Position numbers and translations under genes: made by a program | NCBI GenBank assembly: GCA_030540085.1 | Contig: JAUNWY010000003.1 | Location: forward strand, 1-64,000 | DNA: 64,000 nt | Reading direction: 5' to 3' | DNA from: Eggerthella sp. | GTDB lineage: Bacteria; Actinomycetota; Coriobacteriia; Coriobacteriales; Eggerthellaceae | Notes under the pieces: model-generated | The model's database searches: none | What the model was told of the DNA's origin: nothing | The model's input: only the letters and a program-made list of their open reading frames with translations | In this document: in pieces, positions 5,068 to 55,859 of the stretch | Numbering within the stretch: the stretch's first letter is position 1 | Layout: every line of letters begins with the position of its first letter

Positions 5068-5319
5068 TGGCAAGAAACGGCTCTTGTGCATTCCCAAAGG
5101 GGGCTCGGACAGCAAAAGGGCCTCTCCATGGCAAGATATCGCTGAAATGTATGCTCAAACGGCTTGTTTTTGGCAAGATAGGCGGCTTATGTATGTTTTA
5201 AGCCGTGAAAAGCAGTGAAAAACAGTGTTGGGGAATACATCTCGCGAATTTCTTGCCCGGAAGAGGCCCTTTTGCCGTCCGAGCCCCCTTTGAGAATACA
5301 TTTGAGCGATATCTTGCCA
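5068..5319 (+). repeat. Family B element, copy 2 (diverged, 252 bp)
   Basis: The same order of segments as copy 1, but more diverged: TGGCAA at 5068, then a spacer with GCAAAAGGGCCTCTCC, TGGCAAGATATCG, a short spacer, TGGCAAGATAGGCGG, a central spacer, and two reverse units ending CTTGCC and TTGCCA (5319). No 41-bp satellite is recognisable on its left, unlike the other three copies. The flanking 4941-5067 is otherwise empty apart from the hairpin at 5004. Confidence 0.7.
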
Positions 5320-5487
5320 TGATCTCTGGCTGTCCATGCGTGCGTGCGAAAAACGCCCGTTTCGCTCCATGTTCCACCTGGCGTCTTGCTTGGGACTCCT
5401 GTCGAGAGCCTCCGTTCGGCGTCCTGTCTGGAACCCTCCCAAACACGGAAGCGCCCCGTGTCGAACATAGCGTTTCTTGCCAGAAAA

Positions 5488-7702: not shown

Positions 7703-7735
7703 TTGGGGAGGCGTGGCGGCGCCCACGGGAGCCGC

Positions 7736-7840
7736 CACGCTGTACAGTACGCGCCGCCCGCCCATGGCACCACGCTGTACGGTGCGCGCCGCCCGTCCAC
7801 GACATCACGCTGCGCAGTATAAGGTTGCCGCTCACGGGAG
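7736..7840. repeat. Three 35-bp tandem repeats
   Basis: Units begin at 7736, 7771 and 7806 with CACGCTGYRC; the first two are very similar (GCGCGCCGCCCG core) and the third is degraded. No gene is visible. Confidence 0.65.
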
Positions 7841-7918
7841 CCGCCGCGAAACTGATCACGATGCTACGCTGGGTCCGCCCTGGCCAAATCGTCATCCCAA
7901 AGCTGCTCCGAGACTCCA

Positions 7919-8103
7919 GAAACAAAAATCTCGACATTTTTGCAACATTTTTGCGATTGCGGATTGTTGCGAGCTTCCCAATTGCGGATTGAGGCGCAAA
8001 AGCGCAGGTAATCGGTTGCATGACGGCCTGTTTTCGCTTTGTGGGGACGGAAGAGAGTCCGCAATCGCAAAAAAGTTGCAAAAACGTCTCAATTTTTGTT
8101 TTC
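7919..8103 (+). repeat. Family A terminal-inverted-repeat element, copy 1 (185 bp)
   Basis: The left end begins GAAACAAAAATC and contains TTTTTGCAAC-TTTTTGCGATTGCGGA. The right end is its reverse complement over about 45 bases with few mismatches, ending GTTTTC at 8103. The interior carries GGCGCAAAAGCGCAGG (a small GCGC-AAAA-GCGC hairpin) followed by TAATCGG. Copies at 39736 (inverted) and 55416 match ends and interior, and a right half is at 24727. It encodes no conserved protein. Confidence 0.85.
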
Positions 8104-8205
8104 ACGATGGGTGGATTGCCCCAACGGGTAGATTTCGCAATGGGCGGATCGCCTCAACGGGTAGATATCGTAATGGGCGGATCGCCGCAACAAGGCAAAT
8201 CATGC
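8104..8205 (+). repeat. 16-17-bp tandem satellite beside family A copy 1
   Basis: Units begin at 8106, 8124, 8140, 8157, 8173 and 8190 (steps 18, 16, 17, 16, 17) with consensus A-Y-GGGYRGAT-N3-CN-CA, e.g. ATGGGCGGATCGCCTCA. They directly abut the right end of the element. Confidence 0.75.
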
Positions 8206-8695
8206 AGATGTGCGGATTCTCGTTGGCAGGATTGCTGCCGAGGTTGGGATTACCGATCAGACGGAGCGGCAGCTTGGGTCATGCGGCATGGGGGCTGGCT
8301 AAGTAGAGCGGCAGCGCGAGCAGAGTGGCCTTGCGGCTGGCCGAGTAGAGCGGCAGCGCAGGCAGTAACGCCTAGGGCTATCGATCGGATGGAGCGGCCC
8401 CTGGCCTGGGCCTTGCTGCATCGGGTTAGGCGGCGGTAACGCAGGCAGAGGGTCTCGCGTTGGCCTTACGCGGCGGGGAGTGAGGATTTTCAAGCTTTGG
8501 ACAGAGGCTCCCATACGGCAAAAAAATAAATCCGTTGAGACATGATTGAAGAAGACAATAACCCCTGTTGGCCAGCTAATTTTTGCAAACTGTGCATATT
8601 TTTAATGACTATTTGACGAAAGCGCTTGCTGATGTTGAAATAGACGCACTTAGTCGTTATTGAAGTGATTTTTGAGGCAGAGAAGAGGACACCCT
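8206..8695. other. Upstream region of the TetR gene
   Basis: About 490 bases. The first half has short repeated words (GAGCGGCAGC, GGCTGGC-AGTAGAGCGGCAGCGC). The last 120 bases are AT-richer and should hold the promoter; a TTGACG at about 8614 is a candidate -35, but no convincing -10 follows. Confidence 0.4.
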
Positions 8696-12219: not shown

Positions 12220-13185
12220 GTGGGCTTCGTAGAGGATGAAACACCCTGGTGCGGTGGGCGTGTAAGCGCGCGTGTTCGGTGCGTGCGCGCGAACAACCCC
12301 AGCCCCATGACGTACGTGGGAACCAATTCGTGGATCGTGGCAGAGCCAGGTGCCAAGGAATGTGTGGTGATAGACCCCGCCCCTGCCGGCGAGCAGGTTC
12401 AGCGCATCCTGGCGACATGCGTTGAGGCGGGGCTGCGAATTGGGGCTATTGTTGCCACGCACGACCACCCCGATCACATCGAGGGAATTCCCGAACTTGT
12501 TGCGGCAACGGGCGCCCCGGTGTACGCGCCGCGCACGAGCCGTATCGAGCAGTTGCTGCAGAAGTATGCGTCTGCGAAGCGTGTTGGTGCGAAGTGCGCG
12601 CGCTCGGAAGGTGCCGAGGACGCAGGTGCGGTCGGAGTTGCGGCAACGGCCGAATCTGATTCGGGGAGTTCGCCTCATTCTTGCGAGGAAAAAGCTGGCT
12701 GGGGCGCTGGCGTCCAAATACTTCACGAGGGTTCATTCCGTCCCTTTGAAGGGGCGCCGGAGTTTGAGGCAATCGCCCTTCCTGGCCATTCGGAAGATTC
12801 GGTGGGCTTGCTTCTTCCTGCAGAGCAATCTCTGTTTACGGGAGATGTACTGTTTCGCCATGGCCCCACGGTGGTGTTTCATCCCGATGGGGTGCTGGCC
12901 AGTTATTTCGCCAGCCTTGACACACTAGAGCAGTTGGTTCGCGAAGGTCGGGTGCAGTGCTTCTATCCCGGGCATGGGTATCCCATCGACGACCCGCTGC
13001 CCATCATCGAAGCCACGCGAAAGCATCGCGTTGATCGCTTGGACCAGGTGAAGGAAGCGCTGAATGCAGGCACGCCCGCCGAACCCGATGCGTTGTTCGA
13101 CGTGGTGTATCGGGGCGTGAACCCTGCTTTGCGCATGCCTTCCATTCGAAGCATCCGCGCGCAGTTGAAGTTTCTGGGAATATAG
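12220..13185 (+). CDS. Metallo-beta-lactamase-fold hydrolase (LACTB2/glyoxalase II-like)
   Basis: 321 residues from a GTG with AAGGAG upstream. The zinc motif THDHPDH is at about residues 83-89, with further ligands in LPGHSEDS, FTGDVLF and PGHG, as in single-domain MBL thioesterases and nucleases such as LACTB2. A low-complexity insert of about 50 residues (about 125-175, rich in Ala, Gly and Ser) interrupts the domain. The C-terminal helix-rich part resembles the LACTB2 tail. The last codons (Gly-Ile-stop) lie inside a family C palindrome, so that repeat has probably supplied the present C-terminus. Likely co-transcribed with the Nudix gene. Substrate unknown. Confidence 0.87.
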   Translation: MGFVEDETPWCGGRVSARVRCVRANNPSPMTYVGTNSWIVAEPGAKECVVIDPAPAGEQVQRILATCVEAGLRIGAIVATHDHPDHIEGIPELVAATGAPVYAPRTSRIEQLLQKYASAKRVGAKCARSEGAEDAGAVGVAATAESDSGSSPHSCEEKAGWGAGVQILHEGSFRPFEGAPEFEAIALPGHSEDSVGLLLPAEQSLFTGDVLFRHGPTVVFHPDGVLASYFASLDTLEQLVREGRVQCFYPGHGYPIDDPLPIIEATRKHRVDRLDQVKEALNAGTPAEPDALFDVVYRGVNPALRMPSIRSIRAQLKFLGI

Positions 13186-13209
13186 GGGCAGGTCCCATTT
13201 TCCCGCTTA
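13175..13209 (+). repeat. Family C REP-like palindrome, copy 1
   Basis: TGGGAATATAGGGGCAGGTC... ends TTTTCCCGCTTA, matching the units at 33830, 33930 and 34028. It overlaps the stop codon of the preceding gene. It is followed by a hairpin that resembles the one following copy 2 at 33.9 kb, so palindrome plus hairpin seem to travel together. Confidence 0.75.
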
Positions 13210-13228
13210 GCCATAGCGCATAAAGAAA

Positions 13229-13275
13229 GGGCCTTGCTTGCGAATCAAATCACAAGCAAGGCCCTGTTTGTTAGG
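13229..13275 (-). terminator. Convergent terminator between the MBL gene and cstA
   Basis: GGGCCTTGCTTG (13229-13240) pairs perfectly with CAAGCAAGGCCC (13253-13264). T-rich tracts flank both sides (CTTTCTTTA on the minus strand, TGTTTGTT on the plus strand), so it may serve both convergent transcripts. Confidence 0.8.
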
Positions 13276-16317: not shown

Positions 16318-16565
16318 TGGCAAGGTGCGGCTGCGATTCGTCCTCAGGCGGCCAGGTATGGCGATTCGTATCCGCGATGCGTTCCACGGAGGCCGGTGCC
16401 ATGGCAACGCGTGTTCGCGATGCGCTCTCGGCTGTTCGGCAACGGCAAGATGCTCGCGAAATGCGCTCCTCAGCGTCTGGCAGTGGCAATATGTCGACGC
16501 TATGCATCCCCTAGCGCCTAGCGATGGCGATATACCGACGCTATGCGTTCCTGGGCGGCCATCCG
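16318..16565 (+). repeat. Array of six 41-bp satellite units leading into family B copy 3
   Basis: Units start at 16318, 16359, 16402, 16443, 16484 and 16525 (steps 41, 43, 41, 41, 41), and the 241-bp element begins exactly 41 bases later at 16566. Each unit opens with TGGCAA or TGGCGA and ends ATGCGTTCC or ATGCATCC before a spacer of about 15 bases. The spacers vary more than the units but are not unrelated. Confidence 0.8.
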
Positions 16566-16806
16566 TGGCAATTTTCTCGCTTCATGCATCCCAAAAGTGG
16601 TCCCGGACGGGAAAAGCGCCCCTTCCTGGCAACATATCGCCGCCGTGTATCCAAAACGAGCTGGCTTTGGCAAGATCTGCGCGCCATGTATCCGAAAAGC
16701 GCCGCAAACCGCCTTTCGGGAATGCATAGCGCGCAGACCTTGCCAGGAAGGGGCCCTTTTCGCCGCACTGACCCCTCGAATCATGCATGGGGCGTGAATC
16801 TTGCCG
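16566..16806 (+). repeat. Family B element, copy 3 (241 bp)
   Basis: The closest relative of copy 1: the order of units and spacers is the same, including GACGGGAAAAGCGCCCC, AAAACGAGCTGGCTTT, CGCAAACCGCCTTTCGG and the reverse-complement spacer GGCCCTTTTCGC. It opens TGGCAATTTTCTCGC and closes with AATCTTGCCG. Confidence 0.8.
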
Positions 16807-16859
16807 CGATTCAGCGCTCGTAAGGTCTTACGCGCGGAAGGCTGGAGGAGATGGGTCGT

Positions 16860-19626: not shown

Positions 19627-19812
19627 CGGTTGCGGGCGGTTTGGCGCCGTTCGGCGGCGCCGAGGTTGCGAGCGCTCGGGCGGTTTGGCGCTGTGTCGGG
19701 TGGCGCGTTCCGAAGGCTGCCGCGCCATGAGGGCGGCGCCGTGGTTGCGGGCGGCTCGCGCTGTTCAGCGGCATAGGGGTTGCGAGCGCCAGGGCGGTTC
19801 GTCGACGCCGGA
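19627..19812. repeat. Degenerate GC-rich tandem repeats beside family B copy 4
   Basis: GGTTGCGRGCG recurs at about 19627, 19664, 19742 and 19776, each followed by a GGCGGTTYGGCG-like word. Read in inverse orientation this block resembles the right flank of family B copy 1 (about 713-775), indicating that the islands share flanks. Confidence 0.6.
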
Positions 19813-20053
19813 TGGCAAGATTCGCGCGCCGTGCATGATTTGAGGGGCCTGTGCAGCGAAAGGGGTCCCTCCCTGGCAAGATCTTCGCACGGTGCATTCC
19901 CGAAAGGCGATTTGCGGGGCTTTTCGGATGCATGGCGCGCATATCTTGCCAAAGCCAGCTCGTTTTGGATGCATGGCGCGTGAATCTTGCCAGGAAGGAG
20001 CTCTTTTACCGTCCGAGGCCCCTTTTGGGATGCACGGAGTGAAAAAATTGCCA
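19813..20053 (-). repeat. Family B element, copy 4 (241 bp, inverted)
   Basis: Reverse complement order of copies 1 and 3: TGGCAAGATTCGCGC at 19813, spacer with GGGGCCTGTGCAGCG, TGGCAAGATCTTCG, a centre with GGATGCATGGCGCGCATATC, TTGCCAAAGCCAGCTCGTTT, and the end ATTGCCA at 20053. Confidence 0.8.
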
Positions 20054-20174
20054 CGGATTGCCTCCCGGGAACGCATTGCGGCAAAATCCTGCCATTGCCA
20101 GGCACCTGAGAGCGCATAGCGTCGATCTTGTCATGGTCAGGTGCTTGAGAACGCATAGCGTCGCCATATTGCCG
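20054..20174 (-). repeat. Three 41-bp satellite units beside family B copy 4
   Basis: In the orientation of the element, units end at plus-strand positions 20094, 20133 and 20174 (steps of 41, 39 and 41 from the element end at 20053). As with copies 1 and 3, the satellite is on the canonical left side only. The remaining 200 bases to 20375 hold the promoter of the next gene (TTGACC with TATAAA nearby) and nothing else seen. Confidence 0.7.
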
Positions 20175-20375
20175 CGGCCCGCCGGGGCGCGGGGTGGGAT
20201 CGGGCATTTCGCCTTTTCGGGGTTCAATTGCCAGGAACGGCTTCGAGTCTGCGCTGTTTCGGTGGGCAACCATGAGCCCACTTCGCGTTCTGGTGAGCTG
20301 TGCCGTATCATGAGCTGAAGCAAAAAGCGCTTTGACCTTTATATAAAGCGTGGCAAATGTTGTGGAAGGGATGTC

Positions 20376-24726: not shown

Positions 24727-24823
24727 TAGGCGAAAAGCGTGCCTGGTTTAAGCCTGGATCTGCAAGCATGCTACGGATGCAAGTCGTTAAAAAAGTTGCA
24801 GCCAGGACTGATTTTTGTTTTTG
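24727..24823 (+). repeat. Family A element, right half only
   Basis: GAGGCGAACTAGGCGAAAAGCG corresponds to the interior core of copy 1, and AAAAAAGTTGCAG...GATTTTTGTTTTT matches its right end. The left arm is absent. The following 236 bases to 25059 contain degraded ATGG-rich repeats and no gene. Confidence 0.65.
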
Positions 24824-25059
24824 GGCTCCTGGGATGGCTTCCGGATGGCTTTGTGGGGGGGTGAACCTTGATGTGGCGCTATGGGTGGGACGGCACGAGC
24901 GCGGTGCTGGGCGGAATGAGTTCAGGTGTAGCGCTGAATGGACTTTGGGGATAGACCCATGAGACAGAAGCATGGAGCGGCGCGGTGCTGCAAGTCGACG
25001 CTGGAATAGTGCTATGGCCGAATAGTGCCTAAGCCGTATTCCTGCCATATCCCATACTT

Positions 25060-33832: not shown

Positions 33833-33868
33833 GTGGGAATATAGGGACAGGTCCCATTTTCCCGCTTA
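33830..33868 (+). repeat. Family C REP-like palindrome, copy 2
   Basis: TAAGTGGGAA...TTCCCGCTTA encloses ATAGGGACAGGTCCCATT. It overlaps the stop codon of the preceding gene, as copy 1 does at 13175. Confidence 0.8.
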
Positions 33869-33886
33869 CGCCATAAAGCAAAAACA

Positions 33887-33926
33887 GGGCCTCGTTTGCG
33901 AATTCCGTCGCAGACGAGGCCCTTTT
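33887..33926 (+). terminator. Terminator downstream of the barrel-domain gene
   Basis: GGGCCTCGTTTGCG pairs with CGCAGACGAGGCCC and is followed by TTTTC. The hairpin closely resembles that at 13229, including GCCTYGYTTGCGAAT, and both follow a family C unit. Confidence 0.85.
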
Positions 33927-33929
33927 CGT

Positions 33930-33960
33930 TGGGAATATAGGGACAGGTACCAGATTCCCA
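33930..33960 (+). repeat. Family C REP-like palindrome, copy 3
   Basis: TGGGAAT...ATTCCCA with the interior ATAGGGACAGGTACCAG. Confidence 0.8.
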
Positions 33961-34027
33961 CTTGCGTCACGGCGGTTGATGTCGAGCCTTACGCGCATTT
34001 TTCATTGCAAAGGGGATTTGATCTGCA

Positions 34028-34063
34028 TAGCGGGAAACTGGTACCTGTCCCTATATTCCCGCA
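34028..34063 (-). repeat. Family C REP-like palindrome, copy 4 (inverted)
   Basis: TAGCGGGAAACTGGTACCTG...TTCCCGCA is the reverse complement of copy 3. Copies 3 and 4 face each other across 67 bases, as in BIME-type pairs of REP units. Confidence 0.8.
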
Positions 34064-39416: not shown

Positions 39417-39529
39417 GCATGCAATGGGCGCAGCTTCGTTTTGGGTAATAAGCCCATGTCCCTCTGGCCCATGTCCCCCCCCTCTCTCTCGGGTTTTGCC
39501 CCGTTGCTGCTGCTGGGGCTGCGTGTCTT

Positions 39530-39735
39530 TTGACGGAATTTGTCCTAGTGCCGCCGCTGAGGTCTTGCACGCTTTTCGTGGGATCCGTTCCGTTGGGGGC
39601 TGTCGGGTCTTGCCTGCCTTTCGCGGGGTTCGCCCTGCCGGGGTCGCCGAGAGCTCACATGTCTTTCAGGGGATCCGCCCTGTTGGGGCGATTCGCCCTT
39701 TGTTGGATCTGCCCTATTGCGACAATCGGTCCATC
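39530..39735 (-). repeat. Degenerate satellite beside family A copy 2
   Basis: In the orientation of the inverted element, this block consists of degenerate units such as AGGGCGAATCGCCCCA and ACAGGGCGGATCCCCTGAA, resembling the 16-17-bp units beside copy 1. It lies on the same (canonical right) side of the element. Confidence 0.55.
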
Positions 39736-39922
39736 AAAAACAAAAATCCCGCCATTTTTGCAACTTTTTTGCGATTGCGGACTCTTTTCCGCTCCCTCTA
39801 AGCGGAAATATGCTGCTGTACGCCCGATCACCTGCGCTTTTGCGCCGTGATCCGCGATCAGAGGAGTCCATGACAATCCGCAATCGCAAAAAAGTTGCAA
39901 TCTGAGCCGATTTTTTGTTTTC
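39736..39922 (-). repeat. Family A element, copy 2 (187 bp, inverted)
   Basis: It begins AAAAACAAAAATCCC and ends GTTTTC, with arms containing GCAACTTTTTTGCGATTGCGG. The interior, reverse complemented, has GGCGCAAAAGCGCAGGTGAT, matching copy 1. On its other side (about 39957-40085) GATGG-led units of 28-36 bp recur; the rest of the gap to 40286 is empty apart from the -10 of the next gene. Confidence 0.85.
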
Positions 39923-40272
39923 AGACTCCCCGCAAAGGGTTCGGGGCGGCATCGGGGATGGTACGGAGCAAGTCTGGCGCTGCGAGATGGTACGGGAATG
40001 GCGCAAGTCCGGCGTTGCGGGATGGTCTGGGTGCAGCCCGGGTCCACGCTGCGGAATGAATTCGGGGCGGCCTGGGTGTAGCACCGTGGAGCCCGCGTAT
40101 TCTCTTCGCCATAGCGGTGTTGTCTGTATGGCGACACTTCGGGCGAATGTCGAATGCCGTATCGAACAACCGAAAATCCTCATCGAGCGCGCGTTCGGGA
40201 TTGATCTTCGCCTTCCTATGTGTATCCCTTGTGCAACTCGTGAACGTTTGCGGGGCGCATTTGGCCCTGTGT

Positions 40273-55415: not shown

Positions 55416-55601
55416 GAAACAAAATAGCAGGCAGTTTTGCAACTTTTTTGCGATTGGCAACTACTGCGGGGACTTCTGAGCGTTGGCAGCAGTGAAAAAG
55501 CGCAGCAAATTGACTGTTTGGAGGCTTATTTCCGTCTTTTGCGAGTAGGAGAGGATTGCTAATCGAAAAAAAGTTGCAGAAAGAGCAAGATTTTTGTTTT
55601 C
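55416..55601 (+). repeat. Family A element, copy 3 (186 bp)
   Basis: Same orientation as copy 1. Begins GAAACAAAATAGC, ends TTTTTGTTTTC, arms with TTTTGCAACTTTTTTGCGAT and its complement; interior AAAAAGCGCAGCAAAT matches the core of copy 1 less closely. The preceding 55271-55415 has no other feature. Confidence 0.8.
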
Positions 55602-55700
55602 AAAACGAGTGGATAGCTGCGACAAGGTGATTACCGCAACTGGCAGTGCCCCACGGGGTGATTTCTGTGGTCGATGGTGTTGCAGTGGGAGATTATGCCG
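55602..55700 (+). repeat. 16-17-bp satellite beside family A copy 3
   Basis: Degenerate units at 55605, 55622, 55639 and 55653 (steps 17, 17, 14), e.g. ACGAGTGGATAGCTGCG and ACAAGGTGATTACCGCA, on the same side as for copy 1. Confidence 0.6.
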
Positions 55701-55859
55701 CAGCAGGTAGGCGCTGCGGCAAGAGGGTTGCCGTAATGGGTCGTAGTTTGCGGGGGACGCGCGAAACTTCCTTGCGAAAGAGGGTCGGAATGAAGGGCGC
55801 TACTGATGTGCGGCTGAGCTGCTCCCCAGCCCGTCGTTCCGTGCATTGGCGGCGGCAAC

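Follow-up and report, generated by a model that had tools for sequence, protein, structure and literature searches.

The repeat at positions 7919 to 8103 of the stretch analysed here (64,000 nt, hereafter the window) belongs to an intergenic, non-coding, multicopy, inverted-repeat element, as a preliminary description of this DNA had held, and the 186-bp element is the core of a larger module, with degenerate tandem arrays on both sides and in fixed orientation. The flanking arrays, the relatives of the element in other genera and the phasing of its arm spacing with the DNA helix are absent from that description. As a best explanation, held tentatively, we propose that the element could be a paired protein-binding DNA site that loops ~120–190 bp and that selection maintains where it stands; protein, loop and function are what we infer from the sequence.

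Three full-length copies in the window are real: copy 1 at 7919–8102 on the plus strand and copy 2 at 39737–39921 on the minus strand, both supported by inverted-repeat and model matches, and copy 3 at 55416–55600 on the plus strand, supported by blastn and model matches. The arms of copies 1 and 2 are 44–45 bp long and 82–89% complementary, and TTGCAACTTTTTT (one mismatch allowed) occurs seven times in the window against 0.21 expected, with at most two occurrences in 100 shuffles. The half element reported at 24727–24823 is also genuine but is the left half on the minus strand, not the right half, because the reverse complement of the left flank comes after its end; its sole remains are the left arm (24788–24822, minus strand; covariance model E=5.2, a weak match) and the left flank. 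The window also holds a second, larger inverted-repeat family of ~250–370 bp, with arms carrying TGGCAAGAT and copies 60–83% alike (379–743, 5068–5349, 16438–16810 and 19782–20179), and a third, partly palindromic repeat with GGGAATATAGGGACAGG (13175–13275 and 33834–34060).

The assembly to which the window belongs (G000; 16 contigs, 1.56 Mb, 80% complete) contains 18 full-length cores, one core split by an IS and at least five remnants (C9:211899, C3:24727, C3:107566, C9:219307 and C9:102398), as found by blastn with copy 1 and by a covariance model whose recovery of the 18 full copies is by construction, the model having been built from them. At C3:107566 the bulk of the core is gone between runs of A and both flanks are retained. 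The 19-base inner box of the arms (≤3 mismatches) occurs 38 times in G000, against none in a backward-read control. With 18 full-length places in the genome, the family is therefore not confined to the window, nor do its copies share A/T-rich ends only. The total length is conserved as had been claimed, 17 of the 18 cores measuring 181–186 bp and the other one 171 bp. The reading frames are not: ORFs spanning the core vary from copy to copy, again in line with the preliminary description, and since they are not alike between copies a coding function of the core was rejected. Thirteen of the 18 copies lie between tandem genes, one between 3' ends and one between 5' ends, with three unresolved. 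An association with tRNA genes (5 of the 18 full copies within 500 bp of one of 34 such genes) was not relied on, because its P value of 6e-5 under uniform placement becomes 0.06 if about one fifth of the genome is available. Strand skew was negative to the left of the core in 12 of 17 cases and positive to its right in 12 of 17, a flip judged too weak to build on.

Each arm in G000 carries two nearly invariant boxes, an outer AAACAAAA and an inner TTGCAACTTTTTTGCGATT. In copy 1, the 19-base box search places the inner box (TTGCAACATTTTTGCGATT) at 7940–7958 (plus strand) in the left arm and at 8063–8081 (minus strand) in the right arm, and core comparison places the outer box, ~21 bp outside the inner one on the left, at 7920–7927 (plus) and 8094–8101 (minus), respectively. 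The same search found the inner box of copy 2, a minus-strand element, at 39758–39776 (plus) in its right arm and 39882–39900 (minus) in its left arm, and that of copy 3 at 55437–55455 (plus) in the left arm and 55561–55579 (minus) in the right. Pairwise comparison of the 18 full cores gives a difference of 0.036 for the outer box, 0.060 for the inner box, 0.26 for the inner end of the arm, 0.50 for the spacer and 0.43 for the interior, so that the interior core, described earlier as conserved, is so only in part. Singletons per site per sequence amount to 0.007, 0.012 and 0.040 in the outer box, the inner box and the interior, respectively. Outside the boxes, the closest pair of cores is 95% similar and the next 78%, the others being 56–72% similar to their nearest neighbour. 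The geometry is regular: in 16 of the 18 cores the outer and inner boxes are offset by 21 bp in both arms, and the start-to-start span of the mirrored TGCA is 140–141 bp in 16, 139 bp in one and 128 bp in one, the last counting against the paired-site explanation. We take this pattern as suggesting that boxes and length are held by selection in place; a recent insertion of all copies from highly diverse sources is less likely. If the element were instead a MITE, the conservation of the arms could mean that only elements with good ends spread, a reading to which we return below.

In most copies the flanks are alike and side-specific, the left array being built of degenerate units of ~35 bp and the right array of units of ~44 bp. 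Within the window, the right-hand array occupies 8102–8254 (plus strand) beside copy 1 (best E 2.2e-9), 39474–39736 (minus) beside copy 2 (best E 4.3e-15) and, in a very degenerate form, 55602–55797 (plus) beside copy 3 (E 1.8 and 2.9, both weak). The left-hand array is clearest beside copy 2 (39923–40003, minus strand, ~35-bp units, E 1.3e-6), and is also seen next to the half copy (24822–24931, minus, E 0.013 and 2.6) and copy 1 (7847–7918, plus, E 0.42, weak; TRF reports a period of 35 at 7735–7819). Over the 64-kb window, flank profiles gave matches at E<0.05 adjoining cores only, and the right-array model gave 33 matches in G000, nearly all adjoining cores or core remains, as well as one weak match in a congener (E=0.17). 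An insertion of the core into pre-existing repeat arrays was considered and rejected, because core-less arrays would then be expected, yet nearly all array matches adjoin a core or its remains; two weak array matches (C7:105145 and C13:78429) are without a visible core. The copy C33 (contig C16) is without arrays and is located between a hairpin and a start codon. Searches by blastn with the arrays as query returned almost no matches. On contig C15 of G000, the locus L067 (~110–240) displays a diverged sequence resembling an arm and, after it, a stretch resembling a right flank, possibly an old subfamily.

Searches beyond G000 reveal a patchy distribution. No match was obtained by blastn in three congeners, nor with the 19-base box (one mismatch) in 137 other family genomes. 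With the covariance model at E≤0.01, 12 of 137 family genomes matched: G000 itself and 11 genomes from six other genera. None of the three congeners did, so that the element is not essential in the genus, which counts against the paired-site explanation. Inverted repeats of this size class, eight of which occur in the 64-kb window, were absent from stretches of G003 (145 kb; C9:40001–185522), G001 (40 kb) and G002 (27 kb). Phage, plasmid and viral-contig collections gave no match to the element. Of seven 19-mer matches in a wider contig collection, the one that was read (L038, beside sporulation-like genes) is due to chance.

The loci read in the relatives are inverted repeats with different arms of at least 22 bp, many of them perfect, and loops mostly of ~100 bp. 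Examples of arms are TGCAACTTTTTCGACTTTGTGGCA (G054 and G051), the CTTCG form (G052), TGGCAAGTTTTTTCGCGATTGCGG (G053) and TGCACCGTTTTTTCGATTGTGGCTC (G128), and the motif AAAACCCCTGGTCGG or its forms recurs in the interior. Some matches, those in G075 and G137 among them, have far longer arms, and their relationship may be looser. In the relatives the arms often pair past the common motif through copy-specific sequence; such pairing would be unnecessary for a plain binding site and counts against the explanation by paired protein binding. Exact parS-like 16-mers (TGTTTCACGTGAAACA) are scattered over the sampled chromosome stretches of G051, G052, G053 and G054: the 395 kb taken from G053 contain six, G052 and G054 have many, and some lie within ~100 bp of several elements (L144, L149, L157 and L158).

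In the relatives sampled, the spacing of the arms follows the helical repeat of DNA. Training stretches amounting to 395 kb in G053, 800 kb in G054 and 580 kb in G052 yielded 55 inverted repeats with an arm score ≥18, and Markov-1 controls yielded none on the subsets where they were run. Spans were measured under a strict anchor rule (the first TG[GC][CA] within 8 nt of the arm start, the same in both arms), the anchor motif having been picked after inspection of this first data set. The rule applied to 26 of the 55 repeats, the other 29 being without a strict anchor and uncounted, and the anchored spans were 120, 130–131, 140, 150–153 and 161–163 bp. Their concentration at a period of 10.5 bp is R(10.5)=0.913 (n=26, p=3.8e-10); among periods from 7 to 16 bp, 10.50 bp fits best. 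With one span per arm type and length class, phasing persists (n=17, p=9.5e-7), and when spans were jittered by up to 5 bp none of 5000 sets reached the observed value for either n=26 or n=17. A looser anchor gave 34 spans with R=0.627, six of them off phase, and no anchor at all gave R=0.19 for the raw span and 0.07 for the loop, TGG being the best among 3-mer anchors. In previously unseen stretches of G051 (260 kb) and of G057 (140 kb, another genus), the strict rule applied to 6 of 14 inverted repeats, the remaining 8 having no strict anchor and being uncounted; the six spans (141, 141, 150, 151, 152 and 172 bp) were all in phase, with a mean phase of 0.398 compared with 0.405 in training (V test p=6e-4). 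Among single matches in other genera, seven of nine values fell near phase, and 125 and 212 bp, both from G128, fell off it.

This spacing bears on the suggestion that the element is a structured RNA whose ends pair. The element would then be transcribed, its arms forming a long terminal stem, and would act as a processing site, a 3'-end stabiliser, a terminator or a small RNA. Single-strand folding is indeed far above that of shuffles (z of -7.6 and -8.3 for the two strands), and in the named structure 93.6% of the cells are paired, with none of 500 shuffles reaching four of the five pairing measures, although related sequences can yield the same without structure. Pairing of the boxes thus exceeds shuffles as the suggestion would have it, but the 12-nt spacer within each arm is unpaired (50% of cells, with 352 of 500 shuffles as good), the interior helices show weak covariation and both strands fold about equally well. 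Rfam 15 holds no family that reaches the gathering score for the element, the sole match in the window being a tRNA, and ten loci searched at E≤1 gave no plausible family. A 10.5-bp spacing is not expected of RNA. Because the arm spacer is unpaired and the spacing tracks the DNA helical repeat, we consider a structured RNA improbable.

One observation on the RNA side, which speaks for a paired DNA site as well, comes from orthologous sites, two of which carry elements in both G054 and G052. The first pair shows a single changed base among the 24 of each arm, and together these two changes replace one T-A pair by C-G; the interior is of equal length and identical at 76 of 103 positions. The preliminary description had proposed compensatory changes in the arms as a check, and this pair provides one, while the 12-nt spacers remain unpaired. 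In the second pair, 60 bp of the left flank are identical, one arm matches at 23 of 24 bases and the other at 24 of 24, and the interior, of equal length, matches at 45 of 46 positions in its left part and 38 of 68 in its right part. The diverged patch resembles the outcome of conversion from a different copy or of very rapid change, and an interior inversion (phase variation) was rejected as its cause because the difference is confined to the right half. At other sites one of the two genomes has the element and the other a different block, at times with another arm family; the orthologous gaps G054 1235745/G052 640730 and G054 142926/G052 3306692 hold seemingly different arm families.

Placement relative to genes was assessed with a self-trained codon-usage gene caller, for elements with two called neighbours and no overlap. 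Of 24 phased elements in G052, G053 and G054, 11 have 3' ends on both sides, 1 has 5' ends on both sides and 12 stand between tandem genes, compared with 79, 99 and 245, respectively, among 423 background gaps longer than 150 bp, which amounts to an excess of 3'-3' placement (p=0.002) and a deficit of 5'-5' placement (p=0.014). No preference for 3' ends was seen among the 18 copies of G000.

The resemblance to a MITE noted in the preliminary description is real as regards form, with 18 full copies and arms of 44–45 bp. The arms would be terminal inverted repeats for a transposase encoded elsewhere, and the phasing would arise from pairing the ends of a very short element; synapsis by a transposase on short DNA could likewise demand phasing. 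Such an origin agrees with a multicopy, intergenic, non-coding element whose ends are inverted and whose interior is homologous and keeps its polarity, with several arm families per genome bearing TG...CA ends, and with the patchy distribution (0 of 3 congeners). The hallmarks of mobility were not found, however. No target-site duplication was seen by eye in the flanks, where the core borders in G000 adjoin shared repeats that hide the true ends, and no clean empty site was found, the whole block of 100–500 bp being different wherever G052 lacks an element of G054. No longer element with the same ends was seen in G000 or in the sampled stretches of G052, G053 and G054: among the 38 inner-box matches in G000 (≤3 mismatches) a longer pair was not seen, two single-arm matches being unpaired, and arms in the other stretches (≤5 mismatches) pair only at 106, 126–128 and 137–138 bp, with one G052 arm standing alone. 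An autonomous copy could be missing from G000, because this assembly is 80% complete. The copies are nearly equidistant, with no recent burst, and recent transposition is unlike the data because, apart from the 95% pair, they are about equally distant. The IS with a 9-bp duplication was rejected as the partner of the core, since all it does is interrupt one core and, apparently, a single right-hand array: its ends are GGATCGCGTCCC and TAGTGTCCCG, the ends of contigs C14 and C4 carry a common 9-bp duplication (AAAGCTGAG) within a single core, and the array concerned spans C1 and C3. Copies of this IS break the assembly at the ends of contigs C1, C3, C4, C14 and C15. We regard the MITE reading, the main rival, as a possible but doubtful one. 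It is compatible with a paired binding site, since the sites of an ancient mobile element may be the reason for its retention.

Returning to the paired protein-binding site that we tentatively favour, the arms would be two inverted recognition sites facing the same side of the double helix. A candidate sequence-specific protein or complex would bind both together, holding the intervening DNA as a loop or wrap of ~120–190 bp. In G000 each arm would offer two contact boxes, the outer AAACAAAA and the inner TTGCAACTTTTTTGCGATT, separated by two helical turns (21 bp). The interior would serve mainly as a linker in which length outweighs sequence, save for the one recurring motif, and the species-specific arms could be accounted for if sites and protein change together, as we propose. 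Our best guess is an architectural or transcription-boundary role, because the elements lie between transcription units and, in three relatives, are found beyond gene 3' ends more often than near promoters. The same size, the phased A/T-rich boxes and the 3'-end placement in relatives would also fit strong wrapping by a topoisomerase, for instance DNA gyrase, with a BIME-2-like role in which phased A/T tracts over 140–160 bp aid wrapping; in the part of the source available, E. coli gyrase sites are described as having flanks with a 10.75-bp periodicity and as over-represented in BIME-2 (PMC6379681). The arms are nevertheless sequence-specific and vary between species and between families in one genome, variation for which a conserved enzyme has no need, and we hold a gyrase site to be very unlikely.

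Lac-type repression loops rely on operator pairs on the same helical face, with 10.5-bp spacing rules. The element resembles such pairs in its two sites, their common helical face and the 10.5-bp spacing, but differs in not being at promoters, in its dozens of copies and many arm families, and in being inverted over long arms. Bacterial MITEs such as the Correia elements of Neisseria are likewise short, non-coding, intergenic and present in tens of copies with inverted ends, and some Correia elements bind the DNA-bending protein IHF, according to the available part of the report (PMC10969869); here, in contrast, no target duplication or partner was found, the boxes are conserved while the interior is ~40% diverged, and the spacing is helix-quantised. 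BrickBuilt of Porphyromonas gingivalis, for which the accessible text gives 19 intergenic copies with inverted ends coupled to a tandem minisatellite (PMC4596501), shares the intergenic position, a similar copy number and the association of inverted ends with a tandem array, but its array lies inside the element, whereas here the core is flanked on each side by a degenerate array, the left and right arrays being different. REP and BIME sequences are also palindromic and intergenic, and BIME-2 are stated to attract gyrase in the portion consulted (PMC6379681). REPs, at 20–40 bp in the text at hand (PMC3733652), are much smaller palindromes than a core of 181–186 bp (17 of 18 copies) with arms of 24–45 bp placed ~100 bp apart. 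In E. lenta, possibly a related genus, 16-bp inverted repeats flank megabase inversions, as stated in the available part of the account (PMC13174815); these are inverted repeats too, but of different sequence and megabases apart rather than ~100 bp. Within the portions of the literature open to our search, no earlier description matching the element was found.

A wider version of this proposal, which we consider rather unlikely as a whole, is a family-wide paired-site system with many arm families per genome, TG-type ends and a spacing of 10.5n + ~4 bp. Each arm family would have its own paralogous DNA-bridging protein, dozens of small loops would mark transcription-unit boundaries, and the interior would diverge faster than the flanks, the length itself being selected. 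Short intergenic inverted repeats of bacteria are usually classed as dead MITEs or terminators, and short transposons follow a helical-spacing rule. Here the helical lock on spacing extends over several arm families and at least two genera, and unseen stretches obeyed it too. If true, this would point to a protein that bridges DNA, or to transposition machinery of strict geometry.
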